Assembly (NCBI GenBank): GCA_001783695.1 | Contig: MFNE01000052.1 | Coordinates: 1,864 to 38,906 of the forward strand | Reading direction: 5' to 3' | Length of the DNA stretch: 37,043 bases | From: Candidatus Lambdaproteobacteria bacterium RIFOXYD2_FULL_50_16 | GTDB taxonomy: Bacteria; SAR324; XYD2-FULL-50-16 | In this document: positions 3,949-33,867 of the stretch, in pieces | Position numbering within the stretch: position 1 is the stretch's first letter | Layout of the letters: every line of letters begins with the position of its first letter | The notes under the pieces: model-generated | What the model was told of the DNA's origin: nothing | What the model saw: the letters and a program-made list of their open reading frames with translations, nothing else | The model's database searches: none | Position numbers and translations under genes: made by a program

Positions 3949-4794
3949 ATGAAAAAAACATTACTTCTAATTTGCTTGGGGCTATTAACTGCCTGCACCG
4001 CCCATGCGCCTGACCCACGGCGGTTGGAGATAACCCAACTCGACCAGGAGCAGACCACCTTTCCGCCTTCTGAAGTGGAGCTGGTTTATCAGCCCGCCTT
4101 AATGGTGCTACTGCTCGAAGAAAAAGACCCAATAAAGCCGCTTGAACAAAGCGATTTGGTTACGCTGGCTTTGGTAAGTGACCAATTGGCTGCCCAAGCG
4201 GGCTTAGTGCAAGTCCCTCGCACCCAAATTCAAGCGGTTCTAAAGGATCAAAAATGGCGCAATCTACGCCCTGAATCGATCATGGAAGCCTTGGAATTTG
4301 GCAAGTCTATGGGCGCTCAATTTGTTGGGCAACTCAGGGTACAAACCCAAGCGGAGCGGCAGGTTCAATTTTGGTTAAAGGTGATTAAGGTGGACACGGG
4401 ACAATTGGTTTTTTCAGAAACCTTTAAGTTTCTCCCTGACAAACAAGATCGGATTATTGAAAACCTAAAACCTGTGCTACAGGCCCATTTCCCTATAATT
4501 GGTTGGGTTTTACAGACCCGCGGGGATCGGGAGATGGTCCATATTTCCTTAGGGACCGCTGAGGGTGTAAAGCCAGGAAGACCGGTCGTTTTCAGAAGCC
4601 GAAGGATTGAGCGCGGATTGGAAGAAGGGGTGAATACGGGTCGAATCGAGTATTCAGAGATTCTTGCCAAGGGGAAAGTGACTGAATCAGGTACCGAAGG
4701 CAGTTGGGTCTGGGTTGAAGAAGCTGGGCGGGGAAAATTACGTTGGGGCGATCTGGTTTTTACCGCTCCTGAATCCAAAGGCAATTTTTTTTAA
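3949..4794 (+). CDS. Envelope lipoprotein, CsgG/FlgT-like
   Basis: 281-residue lipoprotein: a short hydrophobic signal ends in the lipobox LLTAC, putting the lipidated Cys at residue 16. The body has the alternating layout of TolB-N/CsgG/FlgT-type envelope proteins: a predicted alpha/beta domain at about 35-185 (VTLALVSDQLAAQAGL, LEFGKSMGAQFVGQLRV) and a C-terminal beta domain with GTAEGVKPGRPVVF, reminiscent of the FlgT C-terminal repeat. The fold assignment is a resemblance, not a firm family call. It starts a compact plus-strand run; hemN begins 6 bases after its stop. A role in outer-membrane assembly or flagellar accessory structure is possible but unproven. Confidence 0.6.
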   Translation: MKKTLLLICLGLLTACTAHAPDPRRLEITQLDQEQTTFPPSEVELVYQPALMVLLLEEKDPIKPLEQSDLVTLALVSDQLAAQAGLVQVPRTQIQAVLKDQKWRNLRPESIMEALEFGKSMGAQFVGQLRVQTQAERQVQFWLKVIKVDTGQLVFSETFKFLPDKQDRIIENLKPVLQAHFPIIGWVLQTRGDREMVHISLGTAEGVKPGRPVVFRSRRIERGLEEGVNTGRIEYSEILAKGKVTESGTEGSWVWVEEAGRGKLRWGDLVFTAPESKGNFF

Positions 4795-4800
4795 TCCGCT

Positions 4801-6180
4801 ATGAATAAGATATACCGCATACCAGACCGATTAATTCAAAAATACAGCGTTATAGGACCTAGATACACCAGTTATCCAACCGTGCCCGTTTGGGGGCCGG
4901 TGGATTTGGATACCCAAAAATTGTGGTATCACGAGCTAGCGAACAGTGACCGTCCTCTGTCCCTCTATTTTCACATCCCTTTCTGCCGCGAACGCTGTAG
5001 CTATTGTGGGTGTAATACCATGATCACCCAAAATCAGGGCAAAGCGACCGATTACGTTTCCTATCTACTCGCCGAGTTGGATAAACTAGCGAGCTATGGC
5101 CTTAGTCATAAAAAACTTCGCCAACTCCACTTTGGCGGCGGGACTCCAACTTTTTTGCTAGACGCTGAATTCAAACAGATTATTGGTAAAGTGCGCGAGC
5201 ATTTCACTTTTGAAGAAGGGGCCGAGTTGGCTATCGAGGTGGACCCCTGCTCGACCCACGATGGGCAGTTGGAGATGCTGGCAGAGCTTGGGTTTAACCG
5301 GTTGTCATTAGGCCTTCAAGACTTCAATCCCCAGGTGCAGCAAGCCGTAAATCGCATCCAAAGTTTAGAGATCACCAAGGCGCATATCGACCTAGCCAGA
5401 AAACTGGGCTTTAAAGGGGTTAATCTGGATTTGATGTACGGCCTTCCACACCAAAGCTTGGAATCGATGAAGGAGACCTTTGAGCAGGTTATCAGCCTCA
5501 AGCCAGATCGACTGGCGTTATATAACTTCGCCTATCTACCTGAACAACTGCCCCACCAAAAGTTGATACATTTGGAAGACCTACCCAACGAAAAGGTCAA
5601 ATTAGAGATCTTTTTTGCGGCCATCGAGGCCTTTGGTCGGGCAGGGTACGAATATATCGGTATGGACCATTTCGCCAAATCGGACGACGAATTGTCAAAA
5701 GCTCAGCATTCGAGGCGGCTTTATCGAAATTTTATGGGCTATAGCCCAAAATCCGGGGTGGACCTGGTGGGGATTGGGATCACCTCGATCGGGGAGACGG
5801 AACATTATTTTTTACAAAACGAAAAAACGCTGTCCCAATACCAAAAGCAGATTGAGGCTGAAGGCTTGGCCGGGGCCAAAGGGATTCGGCTAAGCCTGGA
5901 CGACCGGATTCGCAAATGGACCATTCTGCGATTGATGTGTCACTTTTACCTAAGCTTCGTCGAGTTTGAAGCCGCCTTCCACCAGGATTTTAAGACCTAT
6001 TTTGCCGGTGAACTGGCCGGTATTGAGGATATGGTTGAGGAGGGGCTCCTTAAGGTGGAGGCCGACCATATTCAGGTCCTAGATTGGGGCAAGCTTTTAG
6101 TTCGTAATATTTGTATGCGTTTTGATGCTTACTTAAAGGGCGATCAGGCCCCGAAGGTTAAGTTTTCTAAAACCCTATAA
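4801..6180 (+). CDS. hemN: Oxygen-independent coproporphyrinogen III dehydrogenase
   Basis: Radical-SAM enzyme that converts coproporphyrinogen III to protoporphyrinogen IX in haem synthesis without oxygen; cytoplasmic. 459 residues, the usual length. The 4Fe-4S cysteines are C62, C66 and C69, with C71 next to them, in HIPFCRERCSYCGC, the same numbering as in E. coli HemN. The SAM-binding FGGGTPTFL follows near residue 111 and the typical RYTSYPT opening is at 21-27. It is a true HemN rather than a HemW because of this opening and the CxxxCxxCxC pattern. It is packed between a lipoprotein gene and a gspF-like gene, with no obvious functional link. Its presence suggests growth under low oxygen. 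Confidence 0.95.
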   Translation: MNKIYRIPDRLIQKYSVIGPRYTSYPTVPVWGPVDLDTQKLWYHELANSDRPLSLYFHIPFCRERCSYCGCNTMITQNQGKATDYVSYLLAELDKLASYGLSHKKLRQLHFGGGTPTFLLDAEFKQIIGKVREHFTFEEGAELAIEVDPCSTHDGQLEMLAELGFNRLSLGLQDFNPQVQQAVNRIQSLEITKAHIDLARKLGFKGVNLDLMYGLPHQSLESMKETFEQVISLKPDRLALYNFAYLPEQLPHQKLIHLEDLPNEKVKLEIFFAAIEAFGRAGYEYIGMDHFAKSDDELSKAQHSRRLYRNFMGYSPKSGVDLVGIGITSIGETEHYFLQNEKTLSQYQKQIEAEGLAGAKGIRLSLDDRIRKWTILRLMCHFYLSFVEFEAAFHQDFKTYFAGELAGIEDMVEEGLLKVEADHIQVLDWGKLLVRNICMRFDAYLKGDQAPKVKFSKTL

Positions 6181-28188: not shown

Positions 28189-29400
28189 TTAAAAATCTTT
28201 AAGCATGGTCTTCAGGTTGCGAATGGCAAGCAGCGCATCTGCCCCCGAAACCTTGCCCATACGGTCAAATTTGCCGGAAGTTTCCGGCTGCATCAATCCG
28301 CGGCTAACCACGGTACGCACCGCGTTGTAGCTCCAATGTTCGGCGGGAACATCGGCAAAGGGGCTTTCTTGGCCAACAAACTTCGTTTCGATACTGCCGT
28401 CTTTAGTGATCTTTACCAGTAGATCCTGGATCACCAAGGCAAACTCTCCTCGGGTTAAAGCAGCGGAGGGATAAAACTTGTGTCCTGCATCGGGCTCCAG
28501 ACCTTTTACGCCCATAGAAACCACCAATTCGACGGAATCCTTCATCGGATGATTGGTTAGATCAGTCGCTTCGGGCATTCGTTGGGTCGAAGAAAGCTTC
28601 ATGCCTCGCTGACTATCTGGCGGCATAAAGCTGGGGCTTTCGGCGCGGGCTTGGGCTAGGTATAACTTGTCTAGCCGAAGTTCGGCTAAAAGCAGGGCGG
28701 CCATATCGGCGCGACTGATCTCTAGGTTATTAGCAATCTCTTTGCCAAAGCGGCTCCCAGGTAGGGCTCGTTGGACCTTCTGGATTCGCTTAAGTTCTTG
28801 ATCGGCCTCGACATCGTACTCACGACCAATCGAAAGCACCTTTTTGTAATATTCGGTCGCCTGCTCGTAGTTAAGCTTCGCCGATTCGGCGCTGGCCATA
28901 AAGAAGTAGGGTTCTGGATTCTCTGGGTTAGCTTTGACCGCGTCCTCGAAGTGGTCCTTGGCTTGGTCATACCAATCCTTAGGCCGCTCCATCACCACAA
29001 AAAACCTAACCGCATAAGAATGCGCCCTGGCTTTGATTTCCGGGCTTTTCGCGTTATCTAAGGCCTGTTCTAAAAGCTCGGAACCTTCCTTATACACCAT
29101 CTCTTGGGTCTCTGGGGAAACCGAATCCCCTTGCGCCAAGTAGGCCAAGGCGACGGCCTTCCCACTTTGGGAGGGAGAATGGTTTGCATCCAGTTCCAAG
29201 GCCAAGCCGTAAGCCTTTTTGGCCGACTGGAAATCTCGGTCTAAGAGAAACTTGTCGCCCTGCCCTTGATGATAATCAGAGGTATCCATCGCACCCTTTT
29301 GCGCTCTAGGAGCGGCGGTGTTACCACCACAGCCGGTCAGCCAAAAAAGGGCAATCGCCGTGACCCCAAACAGTTTTGATTTAGTCGATATGGTTAGCAT
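28189..29400 (-). CDS. Lipoprotein with TPR and S-layer-homology regions
   Basis: 403 residues. The signal ends in lipobox LTGC (Cys 24). Residues 40-215 carry TPR pairs (GDKFLLDRDFQSAKKAYGLAL; PYFFMASAESAKLNYEQATE). The C-terminal third has SLH-like segments (KFYPSAALTRGEFALVIQDLL; PFADVPAEHWSYNAVRTVVS) that usually bind peptidoglycan-linked polymers or pack with outer-membrane proteins. AAGGA 8 bases before the ATG supports the start. It follows the LPP20-like gene by 13 bases, so the two share a message. It is probably an envelope protein that links the outer membrane to the cell wall, an inference from domains only. Confidence 0.78.
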   Translation of the reverse strand: MLTISTKSKLFGVTAIALFWLTGCGGNTAAPRAQKGAMDTSDYHQGQGDKFLLDRDFQSAKKAYGLALELDANHSPSQSGKAVALAYLAQGDSVSPETQEMVYKEGSELLEQALDNAKSPEIKARAHSYAVRFFVVMERPKDWYDQAKDHFEDAVKANPENPEPYFFMASAESAKLNYEQATEYYKKVLSIGREYDVEADQELKRIQKVQRALPGSRFGKEIANNLEISRADMAALLLAELRLDKLYLAQARAESPSFMPPDSQRGMKLSSTQRMPEATDLTNHPMKDSVELVVSMGVKGLEPDAGHKFYPSAALTRGEFALVIQDLLVKITKDGSIETKFVGQESPFADVPAEHWSYNAVRTVVSRGLMQPETSGKFDRMGKVSGADALLAIRNLKTMLKDF

Positions 29401-29413
29401 CGGTATTTCCTTT

Positions 29414-30316
29414 TTAGAGTACGATGATCACCCGCGCCTCGCGCAGGAAGGCTTGGCTTTTTTCGAGTTCTTTTAAAAGTTCGCCGTCTTCTTTGGAAAT
29501 TTTAACATCGGCTCCCTTCGCTCCGCCAGCTGCTTCCCCTTTGATAAACAAAGGGTTACCTTTTACTCGGTCATTCTCTTTGGCTTTTTTAAGGTCTTTT
29601 AAGTAGGAAGCCACCCCGTATTCCAAGGCGAATTCGCGCTCAATAGCGAAACTACCGTAAACCTCGATCCCTTCGGCGTTTAGCACCTTTGGACTCATAG
29701 CCGGTTTAATCCCTGAGCCTCTGGCGTCAATCACTAGTCCTGAATAGATGGTTTTAGCGTCACCGCCATATTCGATTTCGGGCTTAGGGGCGGCAGGTGT
29801 GGCCGCTGACTTTTCGAGCGCTGGGAGTTTGTCTGAGGCCTCAAACATTTCGTTTTTAAGCATCACCGAAACAATATCTCGCAAATACATCCGCATGGTC
29901 ACCCAAGTGCTGCCATCTTGGGCTTCTTTGGGTTTGCCAAACTCTTCGACATGCTTGATCTTTCCTTGGATGGCGATATTGATTTCATCGTTTTCCAACA
30001 TCCCCATTTTAACGGTTTGGGTGCTAGTGATGTTGATATCTTCGATCAAGCCCAAAAGGTTGCGTTGGGCGACAACACGGGCGGCTTGGTAGGCAGAATA
30101 TCGCTTTTGGGCGGCAGATTTAAAACTTTCGTTGGGAACTCCCATCCCAGTCGCGTAAACGATGCCTTTTTCCCAATCAATACAGCCTGATGGGGAGGAA
30201 ACGGTGCAACTGTCCTTGACCTCTTTGGGCAAACAGTCCGTACCGGCGCAGGTCTCTGCCAGCGCCACCGGGGCACAAGCGAGAAGCCCCAAGAGTAAAA
30301 GGGAAATTCCTTTCAT
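29414..30316 (-). CDS. LPP20-like envelope protein
   Basis: 300 residues from the ATG at 30316 (AAAGG before it). The signal is MKGISLLLLGLLACAPVALA; it may be cleaved after ALA or lipidated at Cys 14 (LLAC), which the sequence leaves open. The middle resembles the LPP20 family: GIVYATGMGVPNE, then RYSAYQAARVVAQRNLLGLIEDI, then the STQTVKMGMLENDEI strand. A second half follows, with YSGLVIDARGSGIKPAMSPK. The last stretch, KSQAFLREARVIIVL, closes the protein. Similar two-part proteins are common in Deltaproteobacteria-like genomes. It starts the two-gene operon with the SLH lipoprotein. Function unknown. Confidence 0.7.
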   Translation of the reverse strand: MKGISLLLLGLLACAPVALAETCAGTDCLPKEVKDSCTVSSPSGCIDWEKGIVYATGMGVPNESFKSAAQKRYSAYQAARVVAQRNLLGLIEDINITSTQTVKMGMLENDEINIAIQGKIKHVEEFGKPKEAQDGSTWVTMRMYLRDIVSVMLKNEMFEASDKLPALEKSAATPAAPKPEIEYGGDAKTIYSGLVIDARGSGIKPAMSPKVLNAEGIEVYGSFAIEREFALEYGVASYLKDLKKAKENDRVKGNPLFIKGEAAGGAKGADVKISKEDGELLKELEKSQAFLREARVIIVL

Positions 30317-30409
30317 ATGATTACCTTTAACGGGTTGTTGCCAAGTCAAGGGGTGACCGGCAATCTTGGTTTATCAGTTTTTTACTGCAATTAAAAAGCA
30401 AAAATCAGA

Positions 30410-31371: not shown

Positions 31372-33297
31372 TTATTCTTTGTGGTCTAATTCGGGGACGT
31401 ACCGCACCACTTTGTTACGCCCGCCTGTTTTGGCGGCGTAAAGAGCAGTGTCGGCGTATTTAATACAAAACCAGAAATTCGCGGTCTGGTCAGGATACTC
31501 TGTAAAACCAATACTGGCTGTCTTTTTAAGAACATCTTTGCCATAAGGGAAGCTGGCTTCTTCGATCCGCGAGCGAATTTTTTCTGCCAATTTTTTGGTT
31601 TCTCCAGAGCGGGTGTGGAAGGACAGCACTAAAATTTCTTCGCCACCGTAGCGAATCACTAGATCCTTAGGCCCTACAGATTTTTTAATTACAGACGAGA
31701 TCCCTCTTAATACCAGGTCGCCCGCGTCGTGACCCAGCTCATCGTTGACCTTTTTGAAGTAGTCGATATCAATCATCAAAAAGCCAATTCTTCGGTCTTT
31801 GTATTTCTCAATAAATTCGCCTGAAACCTCTTCCAAGTACCGCCGGTTATAGAGTTGGGTCAATTCATCTTTGAGTGACTGCTCGCGGATAAATTCCATC
31901 GCTTGTTTAATTTCTAAAACCGAATTGGCCTGATCCAAGTAGCTACGCAAAAAAGGTAAGCTCTGATCGACCTTCTCGCTTTCTTCTCTTGAACAAACCA
32001 ACTGCACAATGGTGGCAATATCAGTGCCGAAACGGGGAATACATTTATGCACCGCACCTTCGACATCTTTTTCAGGGAAATGCTTACAAAACCGCTCGGT
32101 AGTCATCGAGTCAAAAGGAGCCCGAAAGCGGATTACGGGACAGTTTTCTAGGTCGTGCCCTAAGTCACAGGTGCAATCGTTGATAGGGAATTCGTTTAGC
32201 GCTTCTAGGGCACCGTGGTTTTCGTAATGATCAAGATTGGCCGTTTGAAACTCGGGTTCTACGCAATGGTCGAGAATAAATTTCATCTCTCGTTTACGAA
32301 AATCGACCTCATAAATACCGAAGCGGACTGCCCCTAATTTTTTAGCAGCCTCTTGAATGCGGAGGTAAACATCGTATTTGGACTCCTCGCGCTCGACGTT
32401 TTTCTTGAAATTATAGATCTTAAGTAACTGATCTACGTTGTAAACCGTATCTGTAATGACGTTGCCAGATTTCTCAAATTCATAACCTACTAAGGAATAA
32501 ACGTTATTACAGATTCCGCTGAAGGTTTTTTGCAACTTATCCATAGTGCGGTTAAAACTACCTGCTACGTCGCCTGCTTCATCGTCTAATAGATTTTCAA
32601 TGCGGGCATCCATGTGGCCGCGTTCTAGCGACTGGAAGCCCATCTGCAATTCCTTGAAAAAGGCCGAATAGGGCGTGAAAAACCGGTAGATCATAAAAAA
32701 TATAAAAATAATTCCAAACAGGGTCAACAAACTGATCAAGCTCACCGTCAAAAGTCCTGAACTGCGCTGTTCCGAAAGGTCAAAAGATATGGAAATGGCC
32801 CCTAAAACATCACCCTCTTTAGCCTGGGTGTGGCAATCTAGGCAGCGAATACGGCCCTTTGCCGAGGCTTTATAGGGGATAACCAGTTCGTATATGGGTG
32901 TGCCGAAGCCTTCGGTTAGATGTTCTTGAGTCTCACCGGTAACAAAAACCTGGCGCTCCATTTCGGTCTCGGCGACCTCGTTGGCTCGCGGGGGACCAAA
33001 TTGGTTGATAACCACTTGGCCGCGGATTATTTTTAGTTTTTTAATCGAGGTCAGGCCTTCGACGTCGGTCAAGCCCTGTAAGAAAATATCTCTTTGGCTT
33101 ATAACCCCGAGGACCATTAGGCTGGTAATGCCATCGCGAATGGTTTCGGCGATTGAGTAGGCGTTGGCTTTGGCGGCATTGAGGGTGAGGTGCCTAAAAC
33201 TTAGCATAAATGCAGAAAATACTAATATAAACAATATGATAAATATTAATGAAAAGCGGAAAACCAGCTTAAACTGGATCTTTCTGCTTTTTGCCAT
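31372..33297 (-). CDS. Membrane diguanylate cyclase with periplasmic haem-binding motif
   Basis: 641 residues. TM1 is at about 12-34 and TM2 at about 182-206. The periplasmic loop between them contains C152-LD-C155-H156, a c-type haem motif, followed by GAISISFDLSEQ, the end of a sensor fold. A HAMP-like segment comes at about 207-262. A middle region (310-450) is rich in cysteines (C345, C375, C377, C386, C404, C419, C435). The GGDEF domain is at about 475-640, with active-site GGEEI at 551-555 and DELTQLYNRRYLEE. The inhibitory RxxD is GPKD at 542-545, so Arg is missing. It would make c-di-GMP in response to redox or gas ligands; the signal is inferred. AGGAGG before the ATG is strong. Confidence 0.85.
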   Translation of the reverse strand: MAKSRKIQFKLVFRFSLIFIILFILVFSAFMLSFRHLTLNAAKANAYSIAETIRDGITSLMVLGVISQRDIFLQGLTDVEGLTSIKKLKIIRGQVVINQFGPPRANEVAETEMERQVFVTGETQEHLTEGFGTPIYELVIPYKASAKGRIRCLDCHTQAKEGDVLGAISISFDLSEQRSSGLLTVSLISLLTLFGIIFIFFMIYRFFTPYSAFFKELQMGFQSLERGHMDARIENLLDDEAGDVAGSFNRTMDKLQKTFSGICNNVYSLVGYEFEKSGNVITDTVYNVDQLLKIYNFKKNVEREESKYDVYLRIQEAAKKLGAVRFGIYEVDFRKREMKFILDHCVEPEFQTANLDHYENHGALEALNEFPINDCTCDLGHDLENCPVIRFRAPFDSMTTERFCKHFPEKDVEGAVHKCIPRFGTDIATIVQLVCSREESEKVDQSLPFLRSYLDQANSVLEIKQAMEFIREQSLKDELTQLYNRRYLEEVSGEFIEKYKDRRIGFLMIDIDYFKKVNDELGHDAGDLVLRGISSVIKKSVGPKDLVIRYGGEEILVLSFHTRSGETKKLAEKIRSRIEEASFPYGKDVLKKTASIGFTEYPDQTANFWFCIKYADTALYAAKTGGRNKVVRYVPELDHKE

Positions 33298-33423: not shown

Positions 33424-33495
33424 TTAAACGTGAGCTGAACCTGTTGCCCTTTTGGGCTGGGTTGGGGTAAAGTTGGGCCAAAAAAAGGAGTGCAA

Positions 33496-33867
33496 ATGGC
33501 TGAAGAACTGGACGAGGACTTATTTTCGGGTGGTGGTGGGAAAAGCCCTAGAAACCTGAAACAAGCCTTGCTGCAACAGGAGATCTCTGAAGAGGACATC
33601 CCCAAAGGCGAAGTCGAGTATATTCACGATGTTCCTCTTAAGCTCATCGCCCAGATTGGTACGGTCGAGAAGACTATGCGCGAAGTTTTAAACCTAAAAA
33701 CCGGGCATGTGATCGAGTTCGACAAGGTGGTTGGCGAGCCCATGGACGTTTTTATTGGCGGGCGGCTCATGTGCCGAGGTGAGATTGTGGTGGTCAACGA
33801 ACGTTATGGAATTCGTATCTCTGAGGTTGTTCGCGCCGACGACTCGGCTCGTTTTTCTCAACAATAA
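33496..33867 (+). CDS. fliN: Flagellar motor switch protein FliN
   Basis: C-ring protein that takes part in flagellar rotation switching and export. 123 residues from the ATG at 33496, with AAGGAG 5 bases ahead. The N-terminal 45 residues are acidic and flexible, and the SpoA/FliN domain spans about 47-118: VPLKLIAQIGTVEKTMREVL, then KTGHVIEFDKVVGEPMDVFIG, then GEIVVVNERYGIRISEV. All the elements of FliN are there, with no FliM or chemotaxis gene nearby. It is 30 bases ahead of an ABC exporter ATPase gene, an unusual partner. The protein could also be a secretion-system FliN/YscQ-C relative, but the sequence is most like FliN. Confidence 0.9.
   Translation: MAEELDEDLFSGGGGKSPRNLKQALLQQEISEEDIPKGEVEYIHDVPLKLIAQIGTVEKTMREVLNLKTGHVIEFDKVVGEPMDVFIGGRLMCRGEIVVVNERYGIRISEVVRADDSARFSQQ

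Follow-up and report, generated by a model that had tools for sequence, protein, structure and literature searches.

A membrane-bound diguanylate cyclase with a probable periplasmic c-type haem sensor and an unnamed four-cysteine domain in an uncultured bacterial lineage

The window (the whole stretch of DNA analyzed, 37,043 nucleotides) contains a gene whose product, judged from its sequence, is most likely a membrane enzyme in which a haem sensor outside the cell membrane controls the production of c-di-GMP. It is probably a membrane-bound diguanylate cyclase in which a periplasmic sensor with a Cache/PAS-like fold carries one covalent c-type haem and gates the enzyme as proposed below. The domain order is TM1, c-haem Cache/PAS sensor, TM2, HAMP, a GAF-like domain with four conserved cysteines (Cys4), and GGDEF (Table 1). 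The protein is best read as a periplasmic NO- or redox-sensing haem cyclase, possibly with a second cytoplasmic input through a thiol or metal center. The c-haem sensor was mostly expected, while the Cys4 domain is unnamed and is the part that an earlier sequence-only reading of this DNA did not cover.

Table 1. Features of the cyclase gene and its neighbors, in window coordinates.
Feature	Position	Strand	Basis
uppP (undecaprenyl-diphosphate phosphatase), 6 bases after the cyclase stop codon	30547..31365	minus	PF02673 2.3e-71
Diguanylate cyclase gene, 641 aa, ATG start	31372..33297	minus	ORF
GGDEF domain, residues 472-631	31405..31884	minus	Pfam PF00990 6e-39
GGEEI active-site motif, residues 551-555	31633..31647	minus	sequence
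GPKD, residues 542-545, at the RxxD I-site position	31663..31674	minus	sequence
GAF-like cytoplasmic domain, residues 272-471, with C375/C386/C404/H417/C419	31885..32484	minus	no Pfam family
HAMP, residues 215-256	32530..32655	minus	PF00672 7.4e-5; 23.4 bits vs 25-bit cut-off
TM2, about residues 183-205	32683..32751	minus	hydropathy
Periplasmic sensor (sCache_heme / GSU0935-like), about residues 35-182	32752..33195	minus	profile, fold
C152-L-D-C155-H156, haem c attachment motif	32830..32844	minus	sequence, conservation
Met61, putative counterpart of GSU0935 Met60 (distal haem ligand)	33115..33117	minus	alignment
TM1, about residues 12-34	33196..33264	minus	hydropathy; helix in model
FliN-like C-ring domain protein, divergent neighbor	33490..33867	plus	Pfam, neighborhood

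The probable periplasmic haem sensor

Hydropathy peaks at approximately residues 6-36 and 179-209 flank the loop that bears CLDCH, and C152 and C155 are the only cysteines before residue 263, leaving no third periplasmic Cys. The sequence-only reading had placed the motif in a periplasmic loop, and residues 152-156 do lie between TM1 and TM2.

Relatives were sought with cyclase residues 1-465 in 58 genomes, namely the window's own (G000) and 57 relatives. Matches were obtained in 26 of these genomes, many covering just some of the sensor or the TM2-HAMP region, and full-length orthologs were found in G002 (60% over the query) and G005 (44%). To count the motif without selecting for it, 30 loci were fetched; 20 yielded matches that span residues 152-156, three yielded matches that do not, and the remaining seven gave no match. 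CxxCH is present in 20/20 of the spanning matches, which include the orthologs, proteins resembling chemoreceptors (L004, L005, L009, and others), membrane proteins of about 225-235 aa that stand alone (L006-L008 and others), the window's own protein (L001), and a single decayed remnant (L030). Met occupies position 61 wherever the alignment reaches that residue (14/14 matches). Conservation across the 20 spanning matches rules out CLDCH as a chance occurrence, and the Cys-His pair is kept among these homologs. The CxxCH seen in all 17 sensors of alignment A1 is circular as evidence since its members were picked for carrying the motif. Small stand-alone membrane proteins bearing this c-haem sensor are common in the relatives (L006, L007, L008, L011, L012, L013, and L028), and the periplasmic part of one chemoreceptor-like protein (L018, in G013) contains CxxCH twice.

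A profile built from the 17 sensors matched two Geobacter c-haem sensors in the PDB, GSU0935 (3b42) at 4.7e-9 and GSU0582 (3b47) at 3.2e-6, and PF11845 (Tll0287-like) and PF21563 were each matched by 12/17 sensors at E up to 1. At the same limit, the window's own sensor matched neither Pfam family. Nor did a profile of the three orthologous sensors find 3b42 or 3b47 in the PDB, where it gave no family match. The family link thus rests on intermediates and on fold, and the motif itself may anchor the matches. The AF2 model of the sensor (pLDDT 85.4) has strands at 74-81, 113-117, 124-132, and 153-162 in sensor numbering, with the motif at 141-145 between the third and fourth, which gives a Cache/PAS-like fold with CxxCH between β3 and β4. 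The top Foldseek match of the model was 3b42_B (1.4e-6), with WalK sensor domains, which carry no haem, close behind. By TM-score the model compares poorly with 3b42 (0.33/0.51), for which the swapped-dimer form of 3b42 may be the reason.

When counted from the profile alignment and the published numbering of GSU0935, the invariant Met corresponds to GSU0935 Met60 and the motif to Cys140, Cys143, and His144 (PMC8396549). The same source describes His144 and Met60 as the axial ligands of the GSU0935 haem, replacement of Met60 by NO and CO, and a change in spin state of the GSU0935 and GSU0582 haems upon reduction (PMC8396549). The family was named sCache_heme in a February 2026 preprint, which reports CxxCH in 99% of members and fusions to histidine kinases, chemoreceptors, and c-di-GMP enzymes (GGDEF/EAL) (PMC12889525). 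According to that preprint, members joined to signaling modules behave as sensors of NO and not of O2, as tested on a Pseudomonas azotoformans protein; NO-sensor behavior is reported for a signaling member lacking the axial Cys, and stand-alone members are thought to be redox-related (PMC12889525).

The window's genome holds one cluster encoding an ABC ATPase, CcmB, and a CcmC-type protein and another encoding CcmE, CcmF, a thioredoxin-like protein, and CcmH. The ccm genes to which the sequence-only reading had pointed as a check are therefore present as ccmABC and ccmEFGH-like genes, a System I set. ResB, sought as a sign of System II maturation in this one genome, gave no match, and the genome has one match to the haem-copper oxidase family. 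Together with the intermediates and fold, the conserved CxxCH, and Met61, this System I cytochrome c maturation set makes the covalent haem predicted on the periplasmic loop well supported.

The GGDEF output domain and its I-site

The catalytic metal- and GTP-binding surroundings of the GGDEF domain align with those of PleD, and many of these residues are invariant among the three orthologs. The I-site stretch reads VGPKD-LVIRY-GGEEI, in which G542 stands where RxxD has its R and D545 is retained, confirming the GPKD that had been read at this site. The corresponding residues are GSKD in G002, RETD in G005, and RTSD in the distant GGDEF protein L035. Because one of the three orthologs (G005) retains RETD, loss of the I-site is not a property of the family, and the simplest account of these sequences is that it was lost in the lineage of the window protein and G002, with no tie to the haem sensor. 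The proposed freedom from feedback inhibition is less well supported than the haem: the R is gone, but no more than the primary I-site is lost with it, and the sensor would still gate activity. Nor is there support for "unrestrained" c-di-GMP output being a design feature, given the RETD of G005. Cyclases without RxxD are not rare, and the literature search gave no usable published figure for their frequency. The E. coli cyclase YfiN is described as lacking I-sites (PMC10127611). Six PilZ matches in the window's genome imply that c-di-GMP effectors are probably present in the cell.

The four-cysteine domain

Residues 272-471 have no Pfam match, their best sequence match in the PDB has an E of 1.3, and a search against plasmids returned no match. 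C375, C386, C404, H417, and C419 are invariant in the three orthologs and in L035, whose N-terminus is 4HB_MCP_1-like (E 0.0013) and unrelated to the c-haem sensor. In the window protein and in L035 the domain sits between HAMP and GGDEF. The evidence comprises four sequences of two architectures. Within the class, the domain occurs in 4/52 genomes, the window's own included; searches of other phyla found it in 0/4, 0/77, and 0/291 genomes, counts that show little as they were made without a positive control.

The AF2 model of the domain is weak (pLDDT 57.8), with the Cys-rich stretch mostly below 50 and no metal site visible. The top VIA-align match of this weak model was the GAF domain 3eea_B (Z 8.9, rmsd 4.4, 124 aligned). 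MglB and further GAF proteins scored a similar Z, and Foldseek returned nothing at E 0.001. The domain is tentatively read as a linker of GAF-like type in which the four Cys lie on an insert, and this insert may bind a metal or work as a thiol switch. A literature search with narrow, exact terms for a diguanylate cyclase with an Fe-S cluster, a GAF domain, and conserved cysteines found nothing.

Genomic neighborhood

The sequence-only reading had put uppP in the same message as the cyclase. uppP does lie directly downstream, and a shared transcript is plausible because of the 6-base gap between the genes and a 4-base overlap of the two in one relative (L044). The cyclase-uppP linkage is kept in three genomes (G000, G002, and G005). 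In G000 and G005, the pair is accompanied by the divergent FliN-like gene with an ABC transporter beyond, while in G002 the adjacent cyclase and uppP genes have an ABC gene beyond. A short FliN-like protein is encoded at the same place in relatives. In G001, only a remnant lies between the FliN-like gene and an intact uppP (about 4435-4917 of locus L046); CLDCH and the tail of the GGDEF domain survive in it, but it has an in-frame stop and a change of frame and lacks most of the protein. The cyclase gene is thus dispensable in one relative, in which uppP stays. Further downstream in the window, 28189-30349 encodes a TPR/SLH-domain protein and an uncharacterized, probably secreted protein, and similar frames are found at the same place in G002 and G005.

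Proposed mechanism and alternative readings

It is proposed that the haem is held by thioether bonds to C152 and C155, with H156 as the proximal ligand and M61 as the probable, labile distal ligand. Binding of NO or CO, or an altered oxidation state of the haem, would displace Met61 or change its bond, upon which the sensor dimer would rearrange. TM2 and HAMP would relay this rearrangement to the GAF-like linker, so that the GGDEF domains would either join in a productive dimer or leave it. Since the primary I-site is missing, output is proposed to be set mainly by the sensor. The order of the domains, the conserved motif, the maturation genes, and the conserved gene neighborhood are observed, and haem attachment in the window protein, its ligand, the direction of the effect, and any part played by the Cys4 domain are inferred.

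It may be that the sensor responds to electron-transfer potential instead of gas, the haem reporting the redox state of periplasmic cytochromes, as the reduction-dependent spin states of the GSU0935 and GSU0582 haems (PMC8396549) and the presumed redox role of stand-alone family members (PMC12889525) would suggest. However, the signaling type that lacks the axial Cys is the one with NO-sensor properties in that preprint (PMC12889525), and the window protein has no third periplasmic Cys, so a purely redox sensor is considered rather unlikely. At the output end, a degenerate or nearly inactive cyclase that acts as a receptor or scaffold would fit the GGEEI in place of GGEEF and the dispensability shown by the decayed remnant. 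This is quite improbable, since the metal- and GTP-binding surroundings match PleD well and many are invariant among the three orthologs; the I-site is also lost, and binding of product there is thus unlikely.

The Cys4 domain raises the tentative and somewhat doubtful possibility of a dual-input cyclase, in which gating of the GGDEF domain by the periplasmic haem would be joined by gating from a four-Cys center in the cytoplasm (Fe-S, zinc, or a thiol switch), so that the enzyme would compare the redox or NO state of periplasm and cytoplasm. The invariance of the four Cys and the His in the orthologs and in L035 despite its different sensor, the placement between HAMP and GGDEF in both architectures, and a model with a GAF-like core and the Cys-rich stretch as an insert all argue for such an input, whereas the small number of sequences, the low-confidence model without a visible metal site, and the empty, uncontrolled searches of 77 and 291 genomes from two other phyla argue against it. 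A more specific form is unlikely, namely a two-sided redox- and NO-sensing cyclase in which a periplasmic c-type haem would act on one GGDEF together with a cytoplasmic GAF-like domain of a new class, with four Cys for Fe-S or zinc. The preferred reading remains the periplasmic haem-gated cyclase. With it, the c-haem Cache sensors reach a diguanylate cyclase from an uncultured lineage whose nearest named relative is Candidatus Lambdaproteobacteria, and this protein lends itself to testing whether c-di-GMP synthesis can be set by a periplasmic c-haem. Should the four-Cys domain prove to bind a cluster, c-di-GMP control would gain a redox input that is absent from the Pfam and literature searches made; if the two-sided reading is true, c-di-GMP enzymes would have in Cys4 a modular input not described before, seen here behind two periplasmic sensors that are unrelated.

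Comparison with known systems

The window protein shares a Cache/PAS-like fold, two flanking TMs, and a following HAMP with the sCache_heme/DUF3365 (PF11845) sensors, including GSU0935 and GSU0582 (PDB 3B42 and 3B47), although its own sensor sequence falls below Pfam detection. CxxCH and a Met at the place of the distal ligand are likewise common to the window protein and the Geobacter pair, whereas the Geobacter output is a chemoreceptor module and that of the window protein is the Cys4 domain with GGDEF. Compared to PleD and WspR (PF00990), the GG[DE]E motif and the metal- and GTP-binding residues are the same, but the window protein has GGEEI, no RxxD, and a c-haem sensor. The closest parallel for the cytoplasmic part is L035, a 670-aa protein from a genome of the same class with the order 4HB_MCP_1-like sensor, HAMP, Cys4, and GGDEF. 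In contrast to the window protein, L035 has no c-haem sensor and retains the RTSD I-site and GGEEF, yet it carries the same Cys4 domain at the same position.
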